Shown in pieces: positions 24,750-58,937 of a stretch of DNA of 64,000 bases. Both the position numbers and the translations under genes were made by a program. The stretch is from an uncultured Caldilineaceae bacterium. GTDB lineage: Bacteria > Chloroflexota > Anaerolineae > Caldilineales > Caldilineaceae. The stretch's first letter is position 1, and every line of letters begins with the position of its first letter. The notes beneath the pieces were generated by a model. That model was not told the DNA's origin and made no database searches. It saw nothing but the letters and a program-made list of their open reading frames with translations. The stretch spans positions 3,348,001-3,412,000 of the forward strand of contig OX638330.1 of NCBI GenBank assembly GCA_951812725.1. The letters run 5' to 3'.

Positions 24750-26324
24750 TCAACGATCTCCGGCAACGTCTATGGACGCGTCAATTTTGAGGCGGCCATC
24801 CGGGAACGGTGCGAAGTTCTGGACGCGGTCGTGAACGCCCCACAGGATGTATTGCTGATGCAGGAATACGACCGGCGCATCCTCACGGAAGTACTCTACG
24901 GCTTCCTTCACTATTTCGCGACGTGCGTCAACGTCGGTCTCATTGATAGCGGCGTCGGACAGTTCATCAAATTTGGCATCGGGGTGCTGATCGTTCGGGT
25001 GGGTCGAATGCCAGATTGACAACATGCGGGCGGCGTCGGGGACGGTCATGTAACCGAGCAGGAAGACCGGGCCGCCTTCGTGGCTGTACTGCTCCTCGCT
25101 GAACACGCCCCATTCCAGGGTGTCGACTGTGGCATTGATGCCGACGTCCTTCAACTGTCCAGCTACAGCCTGCGAGATTTCGGCATCCATCATATAGCGA
25201 CCACGCGGGCTGACGATACGCAAGTCAAAACCATCGGGATAGCCGGCCTCAGCCAGTAGCTCTTTGGCCTTGGCAGGGTCGTAAGGATAGGCCTCAAGAG
25301 CAGCCTGGTATCCCCAGTATTCCTCGGACAGCACCTGGCCTTCAAGCTTCTTGCCGAAGCCGTCGAGGATGTTCGCGATAATCGCATCCTTATCGACTGC
25401 GTAGTTGATTGCCTGGCGAACGAGCCGATCTGTGACGGGGGAATCGATCTTGGTATTGAATAACAGGAACACGGAGCGCATTCCAGGCCGGCTCACGACA
25501 CTAAGACCGTCTCGGTCTTCGACTTCCTGAACAGTTGCAGGCTGGAGGTCGGTCGCAATGTCCGCCTCGCCTGCAAGCAGAGTGGCCACTCTGGATGAAA
25601 TGTCAGGTACGGTAAGGAAGGTGAGTACATCGATGTTGGGCTCTTCACCCCAGTAGGTTGGATTCTTGCGAAGCGTGATGTGGTCATCCTTGACCCACTC
25701 TTCCAGAACGTAAGGACCAGTGCCGATCGGATTGTTGGCAAAGTGCTCGGCGCCATTCTCGGTGATGTAGCCTTCAGGCACGATGGGGAACTTCGCCGTA
25801 ACGTACAGGTCGAACAGGGGAATGATGCCATCGGTGTGGAAATTGACAGTGTAGTCGTCCACGATTTCTACGCTCGAGACATAGCGTGTTTCGCCCTTGC
25901 GCATCGAGTCGCTGTCAGGCGCCATTACGCGATCGAAGCTAAACTTAACCTGATCGGCGTTGAACGGTTCGCCATTGGAGAACTCAACCCCTTCTCGCAG
26001 TTTGTACTGCCACACAGTAGGCTCGATCTGCTCCCATGAGACCGCCAGATTGGGCTGCAGGGTCATGCTGTGGTCGTAGTCAAGCAGGGTCTGCTGAATG
26101 TGGTTGCCGACGTTCACGATCACCTGGGCGGTAACCCACTGCATGTCCATCGTCCACGGTTCTGTTCCTTGAACGATAACAAGCTCCTTCTCCGCTTCCA
26201 TTGCTTGCTCACCATCTGCCTGTTGTCCTGTTGCAGACGGTGCAGGTTGCGCGACACACCCAACCAGGACCATCGCTGCGATCAAGACGTAGGCCAGCGG
26301 GAACATCCTCAGTTTCTTTAGCAT
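24750..26324 (-). CDS. Peptide/nickel ABC transporter substrate-binding lipoprotein
   Basis: Family-5 binding protein of 524 residues, exported and lipid-anchored: MLKKLRMFPLAYVLIAAMVL leads to lipobox VLVGC, then a short polar linker. Family blocks include LAVSWEQIEPTVWQYKLREG, FSNGEPFNADQVKFSFDRV and NPIGTGPYVLEEWVKDDH. ATG 26324 is chosen over the longer frame (26411) because AAGGAGG lies about 10 bases upstream and the signal peptide begins there. First gene of the minus-strand operon that continues with tldD, tldE, two permeases and a signal-less binding protein. Confidence 0.95.
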   Translation of the reverse strand: MLKKLRMFPLAYVLIAAMVLVGCVAQPAPSATGQQADGEQAMEAEKELVIVQGTEPWTMDMQWVTAQVIVNVGNHIQQTLLDYDHSMTLQPNLAVSWEQIEPTVWQYKLREGVEFSNGEPFNADQVKFSFDRVMAPDSDSMRKGETRYVSSVEIVDDYTVNFHTDGIIPLFDLYVTAKFPIVPEGYITENGAEHFANNPIGTGPYVLEEWVKDDHITLRKNPTYWGEEPNIDVLTFLTVPDISSRVATLLAGEADIATDLQPATVQEVEDRDGLSVVSRPGMRSVFLLFNTKIDSPVTDRLVRQAINYAVDKDAIIANILDGFGKKLEGQVLSEEYWGYQAALEAYPYDPAKAKELLAEAGYPDGFDLRIVSPRGRYMMDAEISQAVAGQLKDVGINATVDTLEWGVFSEEQYSHEGGPVFLLGYMTVPDAARMLSIWHSTHPNDQHPDAKFDELSDAAINETDVDARREIVKEAVEYFREDAPVVFLHQQYILWGVHDRVQNFAPFPDGRLKIDASIDVAGDR

Positions 26325-26441
26325 CACTCTCTTGCCTCCTTGTGGCTGAATGTGATGAAGTACACTTTGTCGAAAACTATCGAGGATACACACGGAACTC
26401 GTTCTTCTCACTTCGGCAGTTTTGGCAGGTCTATTGCATTC

Positions 26442-27218: not shown

Positions 27219-27554
27219 CGGGGTTCAGGCCACTATCAACGGCTCTAGGAACCTATAACTCGATCGTACTCGCCTACAGTTTGATGACCAGGCCACAAAT
27301 AGAGAACGGCAAATTGGGTGTGTGCATATGTAATATAATTGCCGGGCAGTCTGCTGTCAAGGAGGTTTTCTCAACAGCCGGGGTCCTGTCGAATTCGCTC
27401 CCGGTGTTGGACATGCGGAACATTGCGCGGTTGCCTCGAGGCGTCCGCCTTTCAGAGGCGCATGGGCCCCGGTGGTTTTGAAAAATACTCACTTGATCAG
27501 GCACAATCATAGCCCGGGATCCAGATTGCTTCACCTGCCTCTTCGCCAACCCGT

Positions 27555-27584
27555 TTGCCAATGTCCAGCACTGTACGATACAGT
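27555..27584 (+). promoter_or_regulatory. Candidate promoter for the KDPG aldolase-KDG kinase pair
   Basis: TTGCCA (27555-27560), 18-base spacer, TACAGT (27579-27584). The predicted start is about 37 bases before the chosen GTG start codon. Confidence 0.45.
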
Positions 27585-27627
27585 AAAGGACGTTTTTCGG
27601 ACTGGTCATTTGTACAGGTTTACGCGC

Positions 27628-28293
27628 GTGGATGAAGCCCAAAGAACGTTACAGGTAATCGAAAAGGGCGGGGTGGTGCCGGTTGTACGGCTGCCGGATC
27701 TGGCCGGGGCGGTCGATTTGGCCGAAGCGCTGCTGGACGGCGGGGTGACGGCCGTCGAGTTGACGATGACCAGCCCGGGCGCGCTGGACGCGCTGTCGCT
27801 GCTGCGGGAGCGGGTGGCTGGTTTCGCACGAGGTACAGCCGCATTGGGGATGGGTTCGGTGCTGAATCAGGATATGGCGGCCGCTGCCATTGACAGCGGC
27901 GCACAGTTTGTGGTCGCGCCGACGCTGGATCTGCCGACGGTATCCTGCTGCGTCGAACGCAAGATTCCTGTCATGCCCGGCGCGTTTACGCCAACGGAGA
28001 TCCAGACGGCATGGTTGGCAGGGGCGGCTGTGGTGAAGGTCTTTCCAGCAACCAGACTTGGGCCAGGCTATTTCAGTGACGTGTTGGCGCCGCTGCCCCA
28101 TCTGAGGTTGATGCCCACAGGCGGAGTTGGACTGGAGAACGCAGGTGAATTCATAGGCGCCGGCGCGGTGGCGGTGGGCGTGGGAAGCGCGCTTGTACGC
28201 AAGGAGTGGGTGGCGGACGGCAATTGGCCGGCACTGACGGCGCTGGCTCGCAGATTTGTGGCGGCAGTACAGGAGGCGCGGGCGAAAGAATGA
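27628..28293 (+). CDS. eda: 2-keto-3-deoxy-6-phosphogluconate aldolase
   Basis: Class I aldolase that splits KDPG into pyruvate and glyceraldehyde 3-phosphate. The 221-residue product from GTG 27628 has the short TIM-barrel pattern: GGVVPVVRL, TAVELTMTSPGA with the catalytic Glu, GSVLNQDMAAAAIDSGAQF, PVMPGAFTPTE, and the Schiff-base Lys in VVKVFPA, then RLMPTGGVGLEN. A longer frame reaches 27472 but its extra 52 residues match nothing. The stop overlaps the start of the kinase gene by 4 bases (ATGA), so both are made together. Confidence 0.93.
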   Translation: MDEAQRTLQVIEKGGVVPVVRLPDLAGAVDLAEALLDGGVTAVELTMTSPGALDALSLLRERVAGFARGTAALGMGSVLNQDMAAAAIDSGAQFVVAPTLDLPTVSCCVERKIPVMPGAFTPTEIQTAWLAGAAVVKVFPATRLGPGYFSDVLAPLPHLRLMPTGGVGLENAGEFIGAGAVAVGVGSALVRKEWVADGNWPALTALARRFVAAVQEARAKE

Positions 28294-29285
28294 GCAATTA
28301 CGATGTGGTAACTTTGGGCGAGACGCTGCTGCGCATGGCGCCGCCCGGCCAACTACGAATTGAACAGGCCGCTCATTTTGAGTTGGAAGCGGGCGGAACT
28401 GAATCGAACACTGCGGTAGCGTTGGCCCGGCTCGGTGTGCGCACAACCTGGATTTCGCGCATGCCGGAAAACCCACTGGGGCGACGGATCGCGCGCACCT
28501 TGATGGGGCACGGTGTAGACATTTCACACATTGTGTGGGTAGAGGGCGAGCGGATGGGTCTGTTTTTTGTCGAATTCGGCGACGGCGCGCGCGCTACCTC
28601 GATCATTTACGACCGCGCAGGGTCGGCTGCCAGCCGCATGACGCCCGATGAACTGCCGGCCGACGTTTTCAGTGCATCTGGCGGGCGGCATCTCCACTTA
28701 ACCGGAATCACGCTTGCCATCAGCGAAAGCGCCGCGGCGACGGCCAAACGTGCTTTGCAGCTTGCGCAGGCGGCAGGCTGGAGCGTCAGTTTCGATTTCA
28801 ATTACCGTTCCAAACTGTGGACGCCTGAGGAATCGCGCCGGGGTTGCCATCCCTTTGCGGCGGCCGCGGACATCGTTTTCGCGCCGATTCGGGATGCCCA
28901 GACGCATTATGGCCTGGCTGAAGAGGTCTCGCCGGAGGATGCGCTGGCCGCGCTCCAGCGTGAGTTTCCCGGGGCGACGGTCATTCTCACTTTGGGCGGA
29001 GACGGCTCGATTGCGGCTGAGCCGGGGCGAGCGCCGCGGCGCCAGCCAATTTTTCCGGGAGGGGGGACGGTAGGCCGAATTGGCGCGGGGGATGCGTTTA
29101 CCGCAGGCGTGCTGTACCGCTATCTTTATCCAGACGGCGAAGATTGGCTGGGCGATGCTCTGAGATGGGGCGCGGCGGCGGCGGCAATGAAATATACGAT
29201 TCCCGGAGACATGGGGCTTTTTGAGAAGGAGGAGGTGGCTGCGCTGTTGGAAAGCGGCGGTTATTCAGACGATGTCAGCCGGTAG
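28290..29285 (+). CDS. kdgK: 2-keto-3-deoxygluconate kinase (PfkB family)
   Basis: Sugar kinase of 331 residues, predicted to phosphorylate KDG to KDPG, the substrate of the enzyme encoded just upstream. It opens with VVTLGETLLRMAPPG, has the substrate-lid region GGTESNTAVALARLG and the PfkB signature RIGAGDAFTAG with the catalytic Asp near the C-terminus. AGGAGG lies about 12 bases before the ATG. Family membership is certain; KDG as substrate is inferred from the aldolase partner. The pair would feed sugar acids from the mandelate racemase-type dehydratases into glycolysis. Confidence 0.9.
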   Translation: MSNYDVVTLGETLLRMAPPGQLRIEQAAHFELEAGGTESNTAVALARLGVRTTWISRMPENPLGRRIARTLMGHGVDISHIVWVEGERMGLFFVEFGDGARATSIIYDRAGSAASRMTPDELPADVFSASGGRHLHLTGITLAISESAAATAKRALQLAQAAGWSVSFDFNYRSKLWTPEESRRGCHPFAAAADIVFAPIRDAQTHYGLAEEVSPEDALAALQREFPGATVILTLGGDGSIAAEPGRAPRRQPIFPGGGTVGRIGAGDAFTAGVLYRYLYPDGEDWLGDALRWGAAAAAMKYTIPGDMGLFEKEEVAALLESGGYSDDVSR

Positions 29286-29430: not shown

Positions 29431-30492
29431 GTGGAAAGCAAATCCCTGGAGAACTACTATCAGATATTGGGTGTTCAGCCCAATGCTACGCAGGAAGTGC
29501 TCGATGCTGCATACCGGCGCCAAGTACGCCTGCACACCGGCGAATTTCTGGACGATTCTGCACTGGTGGCGGGGCCGGTACGGTCGGACCCATTCCTGGC
29601 ACGCGTAGATGAGGCATACCGGCAGCTCTCGAGTCCATTGAAGCGCTGGACGCACGACGAGGAGTTGAAGGGGGCGCGGCTGGTTCCTCTCAGCGAAGAG
29701 GAATTGGAGTTGGCCCGCAAGCGAATCGAGCCTACGGACGCATGGCTGTCGTACCAGCGGTTGGAGAATGGTTCCATCTACATTCGGGTGGGCTGGGCGG
29801 TGGATTTCACCGCTGTACACGATGCGGTCATGTCGGGCATTCCGGAGTCGGGGCGTATTTACAATGACCGCCTGAATGAGTGGCGCGTAGATCCCAGATA
29901 CGAAGCAAAGCTGGCCGAGATTTTCGCCAATTTCAAGCGGGCGGACGTGCAGGCGCCGCCAAGGCGAGTCGGCCCAACGTACCAGGGTGTAGGGAACATA
30001 GCGACCACAAAGCGTCCGCACCAGTCGTGGAAGGGCTGGCCGTTCCTGATCATTGGTGGTCTGATTTTGGCAATAGTCGGCGCGGTTCTGTTTCCTGCCA
30101 ACCGAGTCGTACCGGTCACAGTGCAGGCAACAGCGACTGCCCTCGCTCTGGCCGGTTCGTATGAGCCTCTGGAGAGCAGTTTTCTGACCAGGACTCCTGC
30201 CGCCACGCCTTCATTGACTGGGACGCTCCTGCATCCTTCTGTCAATTTGCGCGAACGGCCAGAGGCGGTTGGGCCCGTATTGAAGCTATTGGGTAACGAC
30301 CAGACGTACCAGGTCGTTGGCCGGTCGGAGGATAGCAGCTGGTATGTGGTCACGGACGATGATGTAACCGGTTGGATTGCGGCGTGGACCATTTCCATAG
30401 AAGGGGAACCTGAGATACTGCCAGTCTCCACTGAGGTTTTCTTTTTGTCGGAGAGCGGTGACGAAGAGCAGGTTGACGGCGACGCAGAATGA
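29431..30492 (+). CDS. Degenerate J-domain membrane protein with extracytoplasmic SH3 domain
   Basis: 353 residues from GTG 29431. Residues 8-77 follow a DnaJ J-domain (YYQILGVQPNATQEVLDAAYRR ... FLARVDEAYRQLSSPLKRW in separate blocks), but the HPD motif needed to stimulate DnaK is absent; RLHTGEF stands there. One TM helix at 203-222 (WPFLIIGGLILAIVGAVLF), a Thr/Pro linker, then a bacterial SH3 domain at about 264-325 (VNLRERPEAVGPVLKLLG, GWIAAW). The J-like part would be cytosolic and the SH3 part outside. No good ribosome-binding site was found, so the start is less sure. Function unknown. Confidence 0.82.
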   Translation: MESKSLENYYQILGVQPNATQEVLDAAYRRQVRLHTGEFLDDSALVAGPVRSDPFLARVDEAYRQLSSPLKRWTHDEELKGARLVPLSEEELELARKRIEPTDAWLSYQRLENGSIYIRVGWAVDFTAVHDAVMSGIPESGRIYNDRLNEWRVDPRYEAKLAEIFANFKRADVQAPPRRVGPTYQGVGNIATTKRPHQSWKGWPFLIIGGLILAIVGAVLFPANRVVPVTVQATATALALAGSYEPLESSFLTRTPAATPSLTGTLLHPSVNLRERPEAVGPVLKLLGNDQTYQVVGRSEDSSWYVVTDDDVTGWIAAWTISIEGEPEILPVSTEVFFLSESGDEEQVDGDAE

Positions 30493-31095: not shown

Positions 31096-32454
31096 ATGAA
31101 GAAACCTGAGCGTAGACCTGGATGGCGCGCTCGCCTTTTGCGAGGCAGCAGGCGCCCGAGTATGTTGACGCGCGTTTTGCTGCTCGCCGCGATGTTTATT
31201 GCTGCGTTCACGGCCTATCAAGTCTCACGCGATAGTTCGGTGGCAGACCCGGCTGTGGCGCTCGCGCAACAAGAGGAAGAACAGGACGCTGTCACCGCCA
31301 CGCCGGAAGCGACGCCAGCCGACGCTCTCCAAGCCGTGAGGAGGACCCCCCAACCGAAAGGACATGTGCGCAGTGACGTACGCAGCGACTCTGCGCTGCC
31401 TGCCGCGGACGCAGACCATGCGCAGAGGTATATTGTCGATGATGCAGACGCCTACGTTTACACGGTGCGAATGGGCGAATACTGGTCTCTGGTTGCAAAC
31501 AGGTTTGATCTGACGGCTGAGGTTCTGAAAGAGGCCAATAGCGAATTGTGGCAATTGCGGGGCGAGGTAATTCGGCCCGGCGACCAGTTAGCAGTTCCGG
31601 GTCTCACCGCGCAAGCCACGGTGCCGCCTATATTGTATAAGGTTCAAGCAGACGAATCCTGGGAAGTTATCGCTGATAAGTTTGCTGTTTCGTATCTGGA
31701 CCTGCTCCTGGACAATTTCAATCTGTGGGCCCAGCGGGGTGTTGACATCCAGGCCGGCGATCAGATAATAGTCAGGTACTTGCCATCTGTGCCGATCGAG
31801 TTGGGCGCCATGCGCGGCTGGGCCGGCGGCCCGCCTGTTTTGGCGCCCTCATACGTTGAGGCGCGCGAACAGAAGGCAGCGACGGAAGACGGTCTCGATG
31901 CCGCCGGCACCTATACGGTGCAGCTTGGTGACACTTGGGAAACCGTTGCTGAAGCGACAGGTATCGACGTATCGGCACTGAAAGGAGTGAACCAGAAGAT
32001 TAGCGAGCGAGCCCTACAAGCAGGCGATGTGCTTCGGGTCTCCTGGATTCTGCGTGTCGCATTGATGATTCGCCAGTCCGAGCAGCGCGGGGTGAGGAGT
32101 GCAACTGATCTGGGCAACCTTCCGGAGGAGGAGTTGGCCGCCCTGGCTGCACGGGGGATGTCCGTCTATAAGGAGCAGTATTGCGGCATCTGTCACGTGC
32201 TCGATAGTGCGGGTACAAGAGGTATTTTCGGGCCGTCGCACAACGATATGCGTGAATTGGCCACTGCCCGGCTCGAAGATCCTGCCTATGGCGGCGCGGC
32301 GACCGATGTATATGCCTATCTCTACGAGAGTATCATTGAACCGGACGTTTTCTATGTTGAGGGACATGTGTTGAGTACCCATCCGATGCCGTCCTATCAA
32401 CATATCCCCGAAGAAGATTTGGAAGCACTGATCGTATTCTTGGCGGATCAGTAA
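31096..32454 (+). CDS. Membrane-anchored triple-LysM cytochrome c
   Basis: 452 residues. An N-terminal basic stretch and TM helix (24-41) anchor the protein; the remainder should be outside. A Thr/Pro/Glu linker leads to three LysM-type domains at about 121-169 (YTVRMGEYWSLVANRF), 181-228 (YKVQADESWEVIADKF) and 272-315 (YTVQLGDTWETVAEAT). The C-terminal 100 residues form a class I cytochrome c: heme motif CGICH at 363-367 and probable axial Met431 in HPMPSY. LysM domains bind glycans such as peptidoglycan, so this would be a wall-held electron carrier. The next gene encodes an exported HbpS-domain protein. Confidence 0.88.
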   Translation: MKKPERRPGWRARLLRGSRRPSMLTRVLLLAAMFIAAFTAYQVSRDSSVADPAVALAQQEEEQDAVTATPEATPADALQAVRRTPQPKGHVRSDVRSDSALPAADADHAQRYIVDDADAYVYTVRMGEYWSLVANRFDLTAEVLKEANSELWQLRGEVIRPGDQLAVPGLTAQATVPPILYKVQADESWEVIADKFAVSYLDLLLDNFNLWAQRGVDIQAGDQIIVRYLPSVPIELGAMRGWAGGPPVLAPSYVEAREQKAATEDGLDAAGTYTVQLGDTWETVAEATGIDVSALKGVNQKISERALQAGDVLRVSWILRVALMIRQSEQRGVRSATDLGNLPEEELAALAARGMSVYKEQYCGICHVLDSAGTRGIFGPSHNDMRELATARLEDPAYGGAATDVYAYLYESIIEPDVFYVEGHVLSTHPMPSYQHIPEEDLEALIVFLADQ

Positions 32455-32573
32455 TCGCCTGTCGGCGCAGACTTTGTGCTTGCGGTGTTCGACGACTTTA
32501 CTGTAAGAGTTGCCGCCGAGTGGGCCGCATTCGGCTGTGCCTATGCGGCGCGAAGCGGGAGAAGAGGAGTCAA

Positions 32574-34478
32574 TTGAAAGCTATTAAGATTTCCATCAAC
32601 AGTATAGTTGCGCTTGCAATAGTGTCGGCCCTGTGGATTTCGACCGACAGCGCGATGGCGCAGGAGAAGGAAAGCGGCGGCACGGTAATCGTGGACGGCC
32701 TCAATGGACCGCAGGGTGTGCTGGCGATAGATGACGGCAGCGTCTGGGTGATAGACGTTGGGCTGGGCGGCGATCAGGAAGTGGAGATTGGGGGCCTTGA
32801 TCCGAATACTAACGAAGTTATCAAGGCGTCCTTCGGCAATACGGCGCGTGTGATGCGCGTGACGCCGGGGGGCCAACCTCAGCTTGTGGCGACATTGCCT
32901 TCGATCTTTCTTGGCAGCGACATAGTTGGGGGTGCCCGGCTGGCTCTGCTGAACAATGAAATGTATGCCACAGCCGGCCTCTGGCAAGGCGTGGCCAGCG
33001 AAGAGGCGCTGCCGGATACGGCCGCGGTACTGCGAGTGTTACAAGGCTCGGTGCTGGAGGTCGTACCCTTGTGGAAGGTGGAAAAGGAGCTGAACCCGGA
33101 TGGCCACGTTCTTGAGTCACATCCATACGGGCTGACCACGGGGCCGGACGGTCTGTTGTACGTGGCAGAGGCTGGCGCCAATACACTGATGCAGGTAGAC
33201 GTAGTTAACCAGACTGCAAAGGTAATTGCCGTATTTGAGGGCATTCCCGGCCCACTGCCCAATCCCTATCGAGGGGGCGCACTGGAGACGGATCCGGTAC
33301 CGACCGGTGTCACCTTCGGAGCGGACGGGCGGATATATGTTTCCCTACTCCCCGGGTTTCCCTTTCTGCCAGGTTCGGCGAAAGTCGTTGTGGTTGACCC
33401 GGTGACAGGAAACGTGGAAGACTACGCCACTGACCTGACGATGTTGACGGACTTGCGCACCGGTCCGGACGGCGAGTTGTATGCCGTGCGGTTCGGCATT
33501 TTCACTGACGAAGGCCCGATTCCCAACAGCGGCGCGGTGATCCGGGTAGGCGCAGGCGAAACTTCACAGGATGTGATCACGGGATTGCCTTTTCCTACGT
33601 CGGTCGATTTTGACGTAAACGGGAGTGCGTATGTAACGATCAACGGCGCCAGCGTGGGTGAGCCTGGTCGCGGCGCGGTGATCCGTTTTGAACAGGTTGC
33701 TGTGCCCGGGGCACCCACGATTCGCTTTGTGGAGAGCGCTACCAGAAGCCAACAGGAACCGGAATTCATAACCGGGTGCGGGAGCCTGCCCAGCCATGAC
33801 GCGGTAACACAGGCGTTGGCGGCAACTGTAGCGGCCGGCAAGAATGGCGGACTCGGAAACCATATGTGGGCGACAATTGTTGACCGCGACGGGGTGGTGT
33901 GCGCGGTTACGTTCTCAGGCGCGAACCGAGGCTCCCAGTGGCCGGGCGGGCGCGTGCTTTCCGTCCAGAGGGCGAATACGGCCAATGCCTTCAGCCTGCC
34001 GCGTGTGGCCTTTTCGACGAGCAATCTCTATGCGGCGACGCAGCCTGGCGGCAACCTGTTCGGCTTGCATGAGAGCAGTCCCCTGGACACATCGACTGCT
34101 TATGCTGGGCCTGCCACCGATTTCGGACAGGCAGGGGACCCATTGGTGGGGCAGCGTCCCGGCGGGTGGAGTCGGTCCGGGGGTGGTCTTCCTCTTTACA
34201 ATGCCAGCGGCAGTCTACTGGGGGCATTGGGGGTCAGTGGCGATACACCTTGCGCAGATCACATCGTTGCCTGGAAGCTGCGCGATGCTCTGCAGATGGA
34301 TTACATCCCGGCGGGGGTGAGCGCAAGCGCGGACGACAACATCATTTTCGACCTGCAGTCGGATGGCAAGAGTATCAGCGGATTCGGCCACCCACGTTGC
34401 GGCTTTGACGAGGAACGGTTGACAGAGACGCTGCCCGCTGATTTCCCGATTGGGTTGGCGGCGGAGGCTGGACAGTAA
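32574..34478 (+). CDS. Secreted ScyD/ScyE-type beta-propeller fused to an HbpS/GlcG domain
   Basis: 634 residues from TTG 32574, chosen because AGAGGAG lies just upstream and a clean signal peptide (MKAIKISINSIVALAIVSAL, cleavage after AMA) begins there; the longer frame from 32520 has no site. Residues about 37-378 are a ScyD/ScyE-like propeller (GLNGPQGVLAIDDGSVWVID, PYGLTTGPDGLLYVAEAG, TGVTFGADGRIYVS). Residues about 405-575 form an HbpS/GlcG (DUF336) domain (HDAVTQALAATVAAG, GSLLGALGVSGDTPCADH), a fold known to bind heme in HbpS. Four cysteines, C402, C443, C560 and C609, could form disulfides outside the cell. Located 119 bases after the LysM-cytochrome c gene. Confidence 0.85.
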   Translation: MKAIKISINSIVALAIVSALWISTDSAMAQEKESGGTVIVDGLNGPQGVLAIDDGSVWVIDVGLGGDQEVEIGGLDPNTNEVIKASFGNTARVMRVTPGGQPQLVATLPSIFLGSDIVGGARLALLNNEMYATAGLWQGVASEEALPDTAAVLRVLQGSVLEVVPLWKVEKELNPDGHVLESHPYGLTTGPDGLLYVAEAGANTLMQVDVVNQTAKVIAVFEGIPGPLPNPYRGGALETDPVPTGVTFGADGRIYVSLLPGFPFLPGSAKVVVVDPVTGNVEDYATDLTMLTDLRTGPDGELYAVRFGIFTDEGPIPNSGAVIRVGAGETSQDVITGLPFPTSVDFDVNGSAYVTINGASVGEPGRGAVIRFEQVAVPGAPTIRFVESATRSQQEPEFITGCGSLPSHDAVTQALAATVAAGKNGGLGNHMWATIVDRDGVVCAVTFSGANRGSQWPGGRVLSVQRANTANAFSLPRVAFSTSNLYAATQPGGNLFGLHESSPLDTSTAYAGPATDFGQAGDPLVGQRPGGWSRSGGGLPLYNASGSLLGALGVSGDTPCADHIVAWKLRDALQMDYIPAGVSASADDNIIFDLQSDGKSISGFGHPRCGFDEERLTETLPADFPIGLAAEAGQ

Positions 34479-58412: not shown

Positions 58413-58937
58413 ATGAAACACGGAATCTTGTTGTTCCTGATCCTGGCGGCGGCGTTTTCCCTTTTGAGCTGCGGGCCGGCTGAGAATGAAGGGGGCGGCC
58501 AATCGTTGCCGAGCGAAGCTGCCACCGAGGAGGCTACAGTAGCGCCGACCGAAGTCAGTCTTCCTGAGGTCGAGGGGCCAGTTGAGGGGGCGGACGCTTC
58601 CAACACGCAATTGGTGGCGCTGGGAGAGATTCTCTATCAGCAGTATTGCGCCTCCTGCCACGGCGCGGAGCTTGAGGGGCAGGCCAATTGGAAGGCACGG
58701 GATGAGAACGGATATCTCCCGGCCCCTCCGCACGATGAGACTGGTCACACGTGGCATCACCCCGACGAGCAGCTATTTGAGATTACCAAGATAGGGACGG
58801 AAGCTTTTGTTGGCATGGGATACAAGAGCAACATGATCGGTTTCGAAGAGCAGCTTGACGATACTGAAATCTGGGCGGTGTTGGCCTATATCAAGAGCCA
58901 GTGGTCGCCGAGAATTCTGAAGGCGCAACCCAAGTAG
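58413..58937 (+). CDS. Lipoprotein cytochrome c
   Basis: 174 residues. Signal peptide with lipobox LLSC (MKHGILLFLILAAAFSLLSC), an acidic/Thr-rich linker, then a single cytochrome c domain with CASCH heme motif and a Met in FVGMGYKSNMIGF that may be the sixth ligand. Anchored outside the membrane as a small electron carrier. AAAGGA lies before the ATG, 3 bases after the dipeptidase stop; the tie to a peptidase gene is unexpected. Confidence 0.92.
   Translation: MKHGILLFLILAAAFSLLSCGPAENEGGGQSLPSEAATEEATVAPTEVSLPEVEGPVEGADASNTQLVALGEILYQQYCASCHGAELEGQANWKARDENGYLPAPPHDETGHTWHHPDEQLFEITKIGTEAFVGMGYKSNMIGFEEQLDDTEIWAVLAYIKSQWSPRILKAQPK

Follow-up and report, generated by a model that had tools for sequence, protein, structure and literature searches.

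The window, a stretch of 64,000 nucleotides (contig OX638330.1, positions 3,348,001 to 3,412,000) that forms part of the 5.95 Mb single-contig genome of an uncultured Caldilineaceae bacterium (assembly GCA_951812725.1, here G000), carries two adjacent genes for exported proteins, the first joining three LysM domains to a monoheme cytochrome c and the second joining a ScyD/ScyE-type propeller to an HbpS (DUF336) domain. Compared across genomes, the conserved unit is best understood as the cytochrome c plus the propeller, with LysM and HbpS as lineage-specific additions to an older pair, and on balance we favour the explanation that the two genes are a local LysM/HbpS version of a conserved extracytoplasmic redox pair.

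Conservation of the cytochrome-propeller pair

The cytochrome and propeller genes are adjacent, on the same strand and in the same order in 17/17 genomes of the genus. The propeller is present in 35 of the 46 family genomes searched, and a cytochrome gene lies directly upstream of it at 18 of the 21 family loci outside the genus with enough flank to be judged, loci cut by contig ends being excluded. A 44%-identical propeller from Deinococcus also follows a cytochrome c gene; the more distant propeller of G051, a genome of another family in the class, is not accompanied by any recognisable cytochrome. Full-length identity within the genus is about 52-95% for the cytochrome open reading frame (ORF) and 78-98% for the propeller ORF, indicating that both are real genes rather than chance ORFs. 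The first-pass annotation had described the couple as two adjacent exported fusions, and both fusions are real and their adjacency recurs in relatives, as the core pair, across the family; the fusions themselves proved lineage-specific, and what is conserved is the cytochrome with the propeller rather than LysM or HbpS. The architecture is new and its parts are known.

Two neighbours with separate functions, kept together by a common surface location or by operon inertia, would fit the flanking genes that differ between genera and the unlinked members in G030 and G462. This explanation is nevertheless unlikely, since order and strand are retained at those 18 of 21 varied loci despite changing neighbours, the anchors within pairs are complementary, and the two paralogous pairs found in each of the genomes G022 and G034 both keep the arrangement.

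The LysM-cytochrome c protein

31096..32454, + strand: LysM-cytochrome c gene, 452 amino acids (PF01476 three times, CxxCH/Met cytochrome; kept in all genus genomes)
31162..31224, + strand: N-terminal hydrophobic segment, residues 23-43, probable signal anchor (sequence)
31456..31599, + strand: LysM domain 1, about residues 121-168 (Pfam stretch; limits by eye from sequence)
31636..31779, + strand: LysM domain 2, about residues 181-228 (Pfam stretch; limits by eye from sequence)
31909..32040, + strand: LysM domain 3, residues 272-315 (best Pfam stretch 273-315; PDB LysM chains 272-315)
32131..32451, + strand: monoheme cytochrome c domain, about residues 346-452 (Pfam below cut-off; 1w2l; invariant CxxCH and Met)
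32182..32196, + strand: haem attachment motif CGICH (363-367)
32386..32388, + strand: Met431, presumed distal haem ligand (invariant 25/25)

The ORF at 31096-32454 encodes a hydrophobic N-terminus from which a variable linker leads to three LysM domains and then to a monoheme cytochrome c, so that the triple-LysM cytochrome c with CGICH and Met431 recognised at first pass is upheld. The LysM profile PF01476 matches in three stretches with an expectation value (E) of 1.6e-23 and 82.8 bits (cut-off 20.9), and the predicted glycan binding of this part would be directed to peptidoglycan. No small-x-small cleavage site is present within seven residues after the hydrophobic segment; a conserved AxA-Q lies about 15 residues beyond that stretch, and cleavage is thus still possible. 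The structural model predicts a helix at residues 23-47 with low confidence.

The cytochrome domain scores below the cut-offs of both Pfam cytochrome models, PF13442 (E 6e-4, 20.4 bits, cut-off 27) and PF00034 (E 0.03, 16.1 bits, cut-off 21.3), and is therefore named class I-type and a member of neither Pfam family. CxxCH, Met and about a dozen further residues are invariant in 25/25 cytochrome homologues. The nearest solved chain is 1w2l (E 2.4e-5), titled cytochrome oxidase subunit II, of which the 99 matched residues are read as its cytochrome c domain. The likeness to 1w2l and to class I cytochromes c lies in the CxxCH and the downstream Met, whereas no oxidase subunit II is fused or adjacent here and a LysM or lipid anchor is found instead. 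In the PVC-type haem-binding CxxCH proteins (TIGR02604/TIGR02603) a propeller is likewise joined to a cytochrome c. TIGR02603 matches weakly the cytochrome described here (13.7 bits, far below the cut-off of 68.15) and TIGR02604 the Deinococcus neighbour, but unlike those proteins the present pair consists of two separate proteins and involves another propeller family.

A search of 44 genomes outside the genus gave no LysM-cytochrome c fusion, and none was found among open-access papers. Over its first domains, the LysM part is ~44-53% identical to stand-alone LysM proteins of G022, G030, G034 and G035, no close stand-alone counterpart of which is present in the genus, a distribution consistent with fusion of the cytochrome to such a stand-alone LysM protein. 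A second cytochrome c gene in the window (58413-58937) is of the lipoprotein type, with the lipobox LLSC and a PF00034 score of 49 bits.

The propeller and its HbpS domain

32574..34478, + strand: propeller-HbpS gene (mechanical ORF from GTG 32520; likely start TTG 32574)
32574..32660, + strand: signal peptide, cleavage likely after SAMA, before QE (sequence and alignment)
32664..33707, + strand: six-bladed ScyD/ScyE-type propeller, residues 49-396 counted from GTG 32520 (NF033206; fold match)
33774..34475, + strand: HbpS/DUF336 domain with conserved Cys420, 461, 578 and 627 (PF03928)

The coordinates given at first pass are right apart from the beginning of this second gene, for which TTG 32574 is a likelier start than GTG 32520 because a Shine-Dalgarno-like AGAGGAG (32563-32569) precedes it and conservation sets in there. 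The predicted fusion of a propeller to an HbpS/GlcG domain was confirmed, as NCBIfam NF033206 (ScyD/ScyE; 229.6 bits, cut-off 80) and PF03928 (HbpS; 35.6 bits, cut-off 25, residues 426-584) both score above their cut-offs; the domain searches suggested at first pass thus returned HbpS as well as LysM. In AlphaFold models of both proteins, computed with five sequences, the propeller part is usable and the HbpS part lies below 50. The propeller model matches six-bladed propellers over residues 49-396 with Z about 26 in a fold search, in which lactonases, NHL domains, virginiamycin lyase, designed propellers and a Deinococcus propeller linked to superoxide dismutase (SOD) are tied; with so many unrelated propellers tied, the fold is assigned and an enzymatic function is not.

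The likeness to the ScyD/ScyE family, which includes ScyE of scytonemin synthesis, consists in the profile score above cut-off and in export, while HbpS, carbonic anhydrase or DUF7282 modules and a neighbouring cytochrome c set the present proteins apart. No scytonemin (scy) genes were recognised among the neighbours read, the whole genome not having been searched for them, and what ScyE itself does biochemically has yet to be settled (PMC4870267).

The four HbpS-domain cysteines are kept in all homologues covering those positions and plausibly form disulfides of the exported domain. The closest solved structure is the formaldehyde sensor EfgA (6bws/6c0z; 29.9 bits), of which K57, S114 and D121 have their counterparts in R484 (a Lys in every relative examined), S573 and D580. 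Besides haem, which is bound by Streptomyces HbpS and PduO, the DUF336 fold binds formaldehyde in EfgA (PMC8153426), and the formaldehyde-binding positions of EfgA are largely conserved across DUF336 homologues (PMC8153426, S14 legend); being so widespread, these residues do not identify the ligand of the domain, for which haem and formaldehyde are both possible. Unlike cytoplasmic EfgA, the HbpS domain here is secreted, cysteine-containing and fused to a propeller. A stand-alone HbpS homologue of Mesorhizobium (52%) heads an operon with genes for a pyrroloquinoline quinone (PQQ) methanol/ethanol dehydrogenase, a cytochrome c and a cytochrome oxidase.

The first-pass annotation had seen in HbpS a pointer to haem, and the pair could accordingly be read as a haem capture or sensing system, with HbpS binding environmental haem and the cytochrome acting as haem carrier or wall redox sensor. 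PF03928 is indeed named for the haem-degrading HbpS, and Streptomyces HbpS is extracellular and binds haem (PMC8153426). We consider this reading improbable, as HbpS occurs in part of the family only and the cytochrome-propeller pair is kept without it, the nearest solved relative is a formaldehyde sensor, and the neighbourhoods of the pair that were read gave no recognisable haem transporter or two-component system. A haem function of HbpS has no support other than the family name; the nearest stand-alone HbpS homologues whose neighbours are annotated lie with a PQQ alcohol dehydrogenase, and EfgA binds formaldehyde.

Less probable still is an oxidative-stress module in which the propeller carries protective surface domains and the cytochrome is an electron sink for peroxide or superoxide. 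It draws on the fold match to the Deinococcus Cu/Zn-SOD with a propeller (9m58/9m59) and on the action of Streptomyces HbpS in an oxidative-stress pathway (PMC8153426); the SOD match, however, is one of fold only and is equalled by many unrelated propellers, the pair has no recognised SOD, catalase or peroxidase as a neighbour, and the His/Met ligation residues of the cytochrome are not typical of peroxidases.

Surface anchors and sortase

Genomes of other genera have a short exported cytochrome, mostly with a lipobox, which is missing there only in G019, G021 and G025, and the propellers of these three all have LPxTG; the LysM cytochromes of the genus lack a lipobox as well. An [LM]PxTG motif followed by a hydrophobic stretch and a basic tail terminates 14 of the 15 family propellers without HbpS and none of the 12 HbpS propellers examined, so that LPxTG and HbpS never occur together (14 versus 12). 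Propellers that end in HbpS and lack LPxTG are those of the genus, of g7 (its sister group, with 100/99 support in the propeller tree), of G027 and of G462b; for the window propeller, no LPxTG signal is present in the last 55 residues. The LPxTG signals on homologous propellers are independent evidence for the wall-associated role proposed at first pass, for which the sequences give good support. No pair is without a recognisable anchor, and an anchor that is always present on at least one partner suggests that the cytochrome and the propeller hold each other.

Other modules are placed before LPxTG, namely DUF7282 (G018, G029, G462a), fasciclin with DUF7282 (G019) and alpha-carbonic anhydrase (G022b, G459b). 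The carbonic anhydrases are of the eukaryotic type (PF00194, E 9e-45 and 8e-44), the paralogous propellers that carry them lying on the minus strand (7780-9855 in L143 of G022:C38 and 3022-5154 in L156 of G459:C93), and close orthologues of these propellers in G034 and G456 are without that domain. No support was obtained for one common origin of the HbpS fusions, the G027 and G462b propellers falling outside the g1+g7 clade, and the HbpS tree leaves the placement of these two undecided.

Among the genomes of other genera that carry the pair or parts of it, 18/18 have sortase (PF04203), usually in strong copies of about 80-95 bits (G456 reaches only 63, and the G019 hit is truncated). In the genus, none was detected in 16 of the 17 genomes, and G004, the deepest genus branch in the propeller tree, has one hit of 54 bits. 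Counting PF00746 matches genome-wide proved too weak a measure of sorting signals, as three of the four matches were the propellers themselves. The genus g16, represented by four genomes, has neither sortase nor propeller.

The step specific to the genus is the replacement of the lipid anchor of the cytochrome by LysM and a membrane segment. Loss of lipoprotein processing was rejected as its background, since lipobox proteins are encoded in the window (ORFs 24750-26411 and 58413-58937). Tentatively, and at odds we put below even, the surface anchor may have moved between interacting partners after the main sortase loss, from LPxTG or lipid to three LysM domains on the cytochrome.

Genomic neighbourhood and possible substrates

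27472..28293, + strand: KDPG/KHG aldolase, upstream on the same strand (PF01081, E 1.1e-41; ORF start probably too early)
28206..29285, + strand: PfkB-family sugar kinase, probable KDG kinase (PF00294, E 2.8e-39)
29431..30492, + strand: protein with a J-like domain, a transmembrane segment and SH3_3, conserved neighbour upstream of the cytochrome gene

The order PfkB sugar kinase, J/SH3 membrane protein and cytochrome gene is shared by those genus members that were read and by G022, G457, G460 and G030, and the KDPG aldolase precedes that kinase in the window and in the same four genomes. The J/SH3 protein also lies upstream of the cytochrome gene in g7 and, as noted, in G030. Convergent genes for [2Fe-2S] and molybdopterin hydroxylase proteins lie beside the second paralogous pair of G022 and the G027 pair; in G034 the corresponding position beside the pair holds a molybdopterin domain. 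Together with the PQQ operon, the aldolase, kinase and molybdo-hydroxylase genes favour oxidation of a sugar or a small aldehyde or alcohol over haem uptake; sugar, aldehyde or alcohol as the actual substrate class is a doubtful assignment. Taken with the cytochrome c gene before the Deinococcus propeller, these neighbours point to small carbon compounds being oxidised outside the cytoplasm, cytochrome c accepting the electrons.

Glucose/sorbosone dehydrogenase (GSDH) has 13 matches in the genome G000, where two frames join GSDH to cytochrome c and six GSDH stand in tandem at 2.59-2.60 Mb (e.g. C1:770844-774620; C1:2594764-2604621). The neighbour of the Deinococcus pair that is annotated 'glucose dehydrogenase' does not reach the GSDH cut-off and was not used as evidence of sugar oxidation. 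In G018, G032 and G033 the gene immediately upstream of the cytochrome is a methyltransferase of the URO-D/MtaA type (L129 6524-7516, L134 11018-12061 and L135 8377-9375), profile-confirmed only for G018.

Proposed function of the pair

With gene order, domain content and anchor signals as observed, a monoheme cytochrome c and a six-bladed ScyE-type propeller would cooperate outside the membrane, binding each other so that one surface anchor could hold the complex. In most relatives this anchor would be lipid on the cytochrome, sortase-type LPxTG on the propeller, or both. In the genus, where the propeller carries HbpS instead of LPxTG and strong sortase is gone, the membrane-spanning segment and the three LysM domains would keep the cytochrome at the peptidoglycan. 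The cytochrome held at the wall could then take up electrons from an oxidised small extracellular substrate and hand them to the membrane respiratory chain, with the propeller as catalytic or docking body and HbpS binding a small substrate or product. The support for joint action of the two proteins is moderate, and that they work as an anchored redox pair seems to us probable, though far from certain; the electron-transfer role at the wall suggested at first pass is the favoured reading.

Several findings speak against this proposal. The two genes are not adjacent at the G030, G462b and G032b loci, no redox enzyme stands next to the pair in the genus, where the molybdo-hydroxylase and GSDH genes lie elsewhere in the genome, and the J/SH3 and KDG genes occur in no more than part of the family. 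Neither a catalytic site nor a cofactor could be identified in the propeller, and the AlphaFold model of the LysM-cytochrome is poor (predicted local distance difference test 45.7; cytochrome part about 30-50). As to the anchors, g7 has HbpS propellers without LPxTG and has kept sortase, with a lipoprotein as its cytochrome, an arrangement that weakened sortase loss as a direct cause of the LysM gain; the two events form a single evolutionary coincidence and carry no statistical weight.

The bacterium is presumably single-membraned, as most Chloroflexota are, and the pair would show how such Chloroflexota could keep a cytochrome c within the wall instead of letting it diffuse off. If the proposed anchor transfer is true, a covalent-to-noncovalent exchange across partners would be visible in genomes, and a monoheme, LysM-tethered electron carrier would reside in a bacterial cell wall. 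The ScyD/ScyE family name would become testable through a propeller with a conserved cytochrome partner, and anchor swapping between partners may offer a general means to infer complexes of exported proteins.

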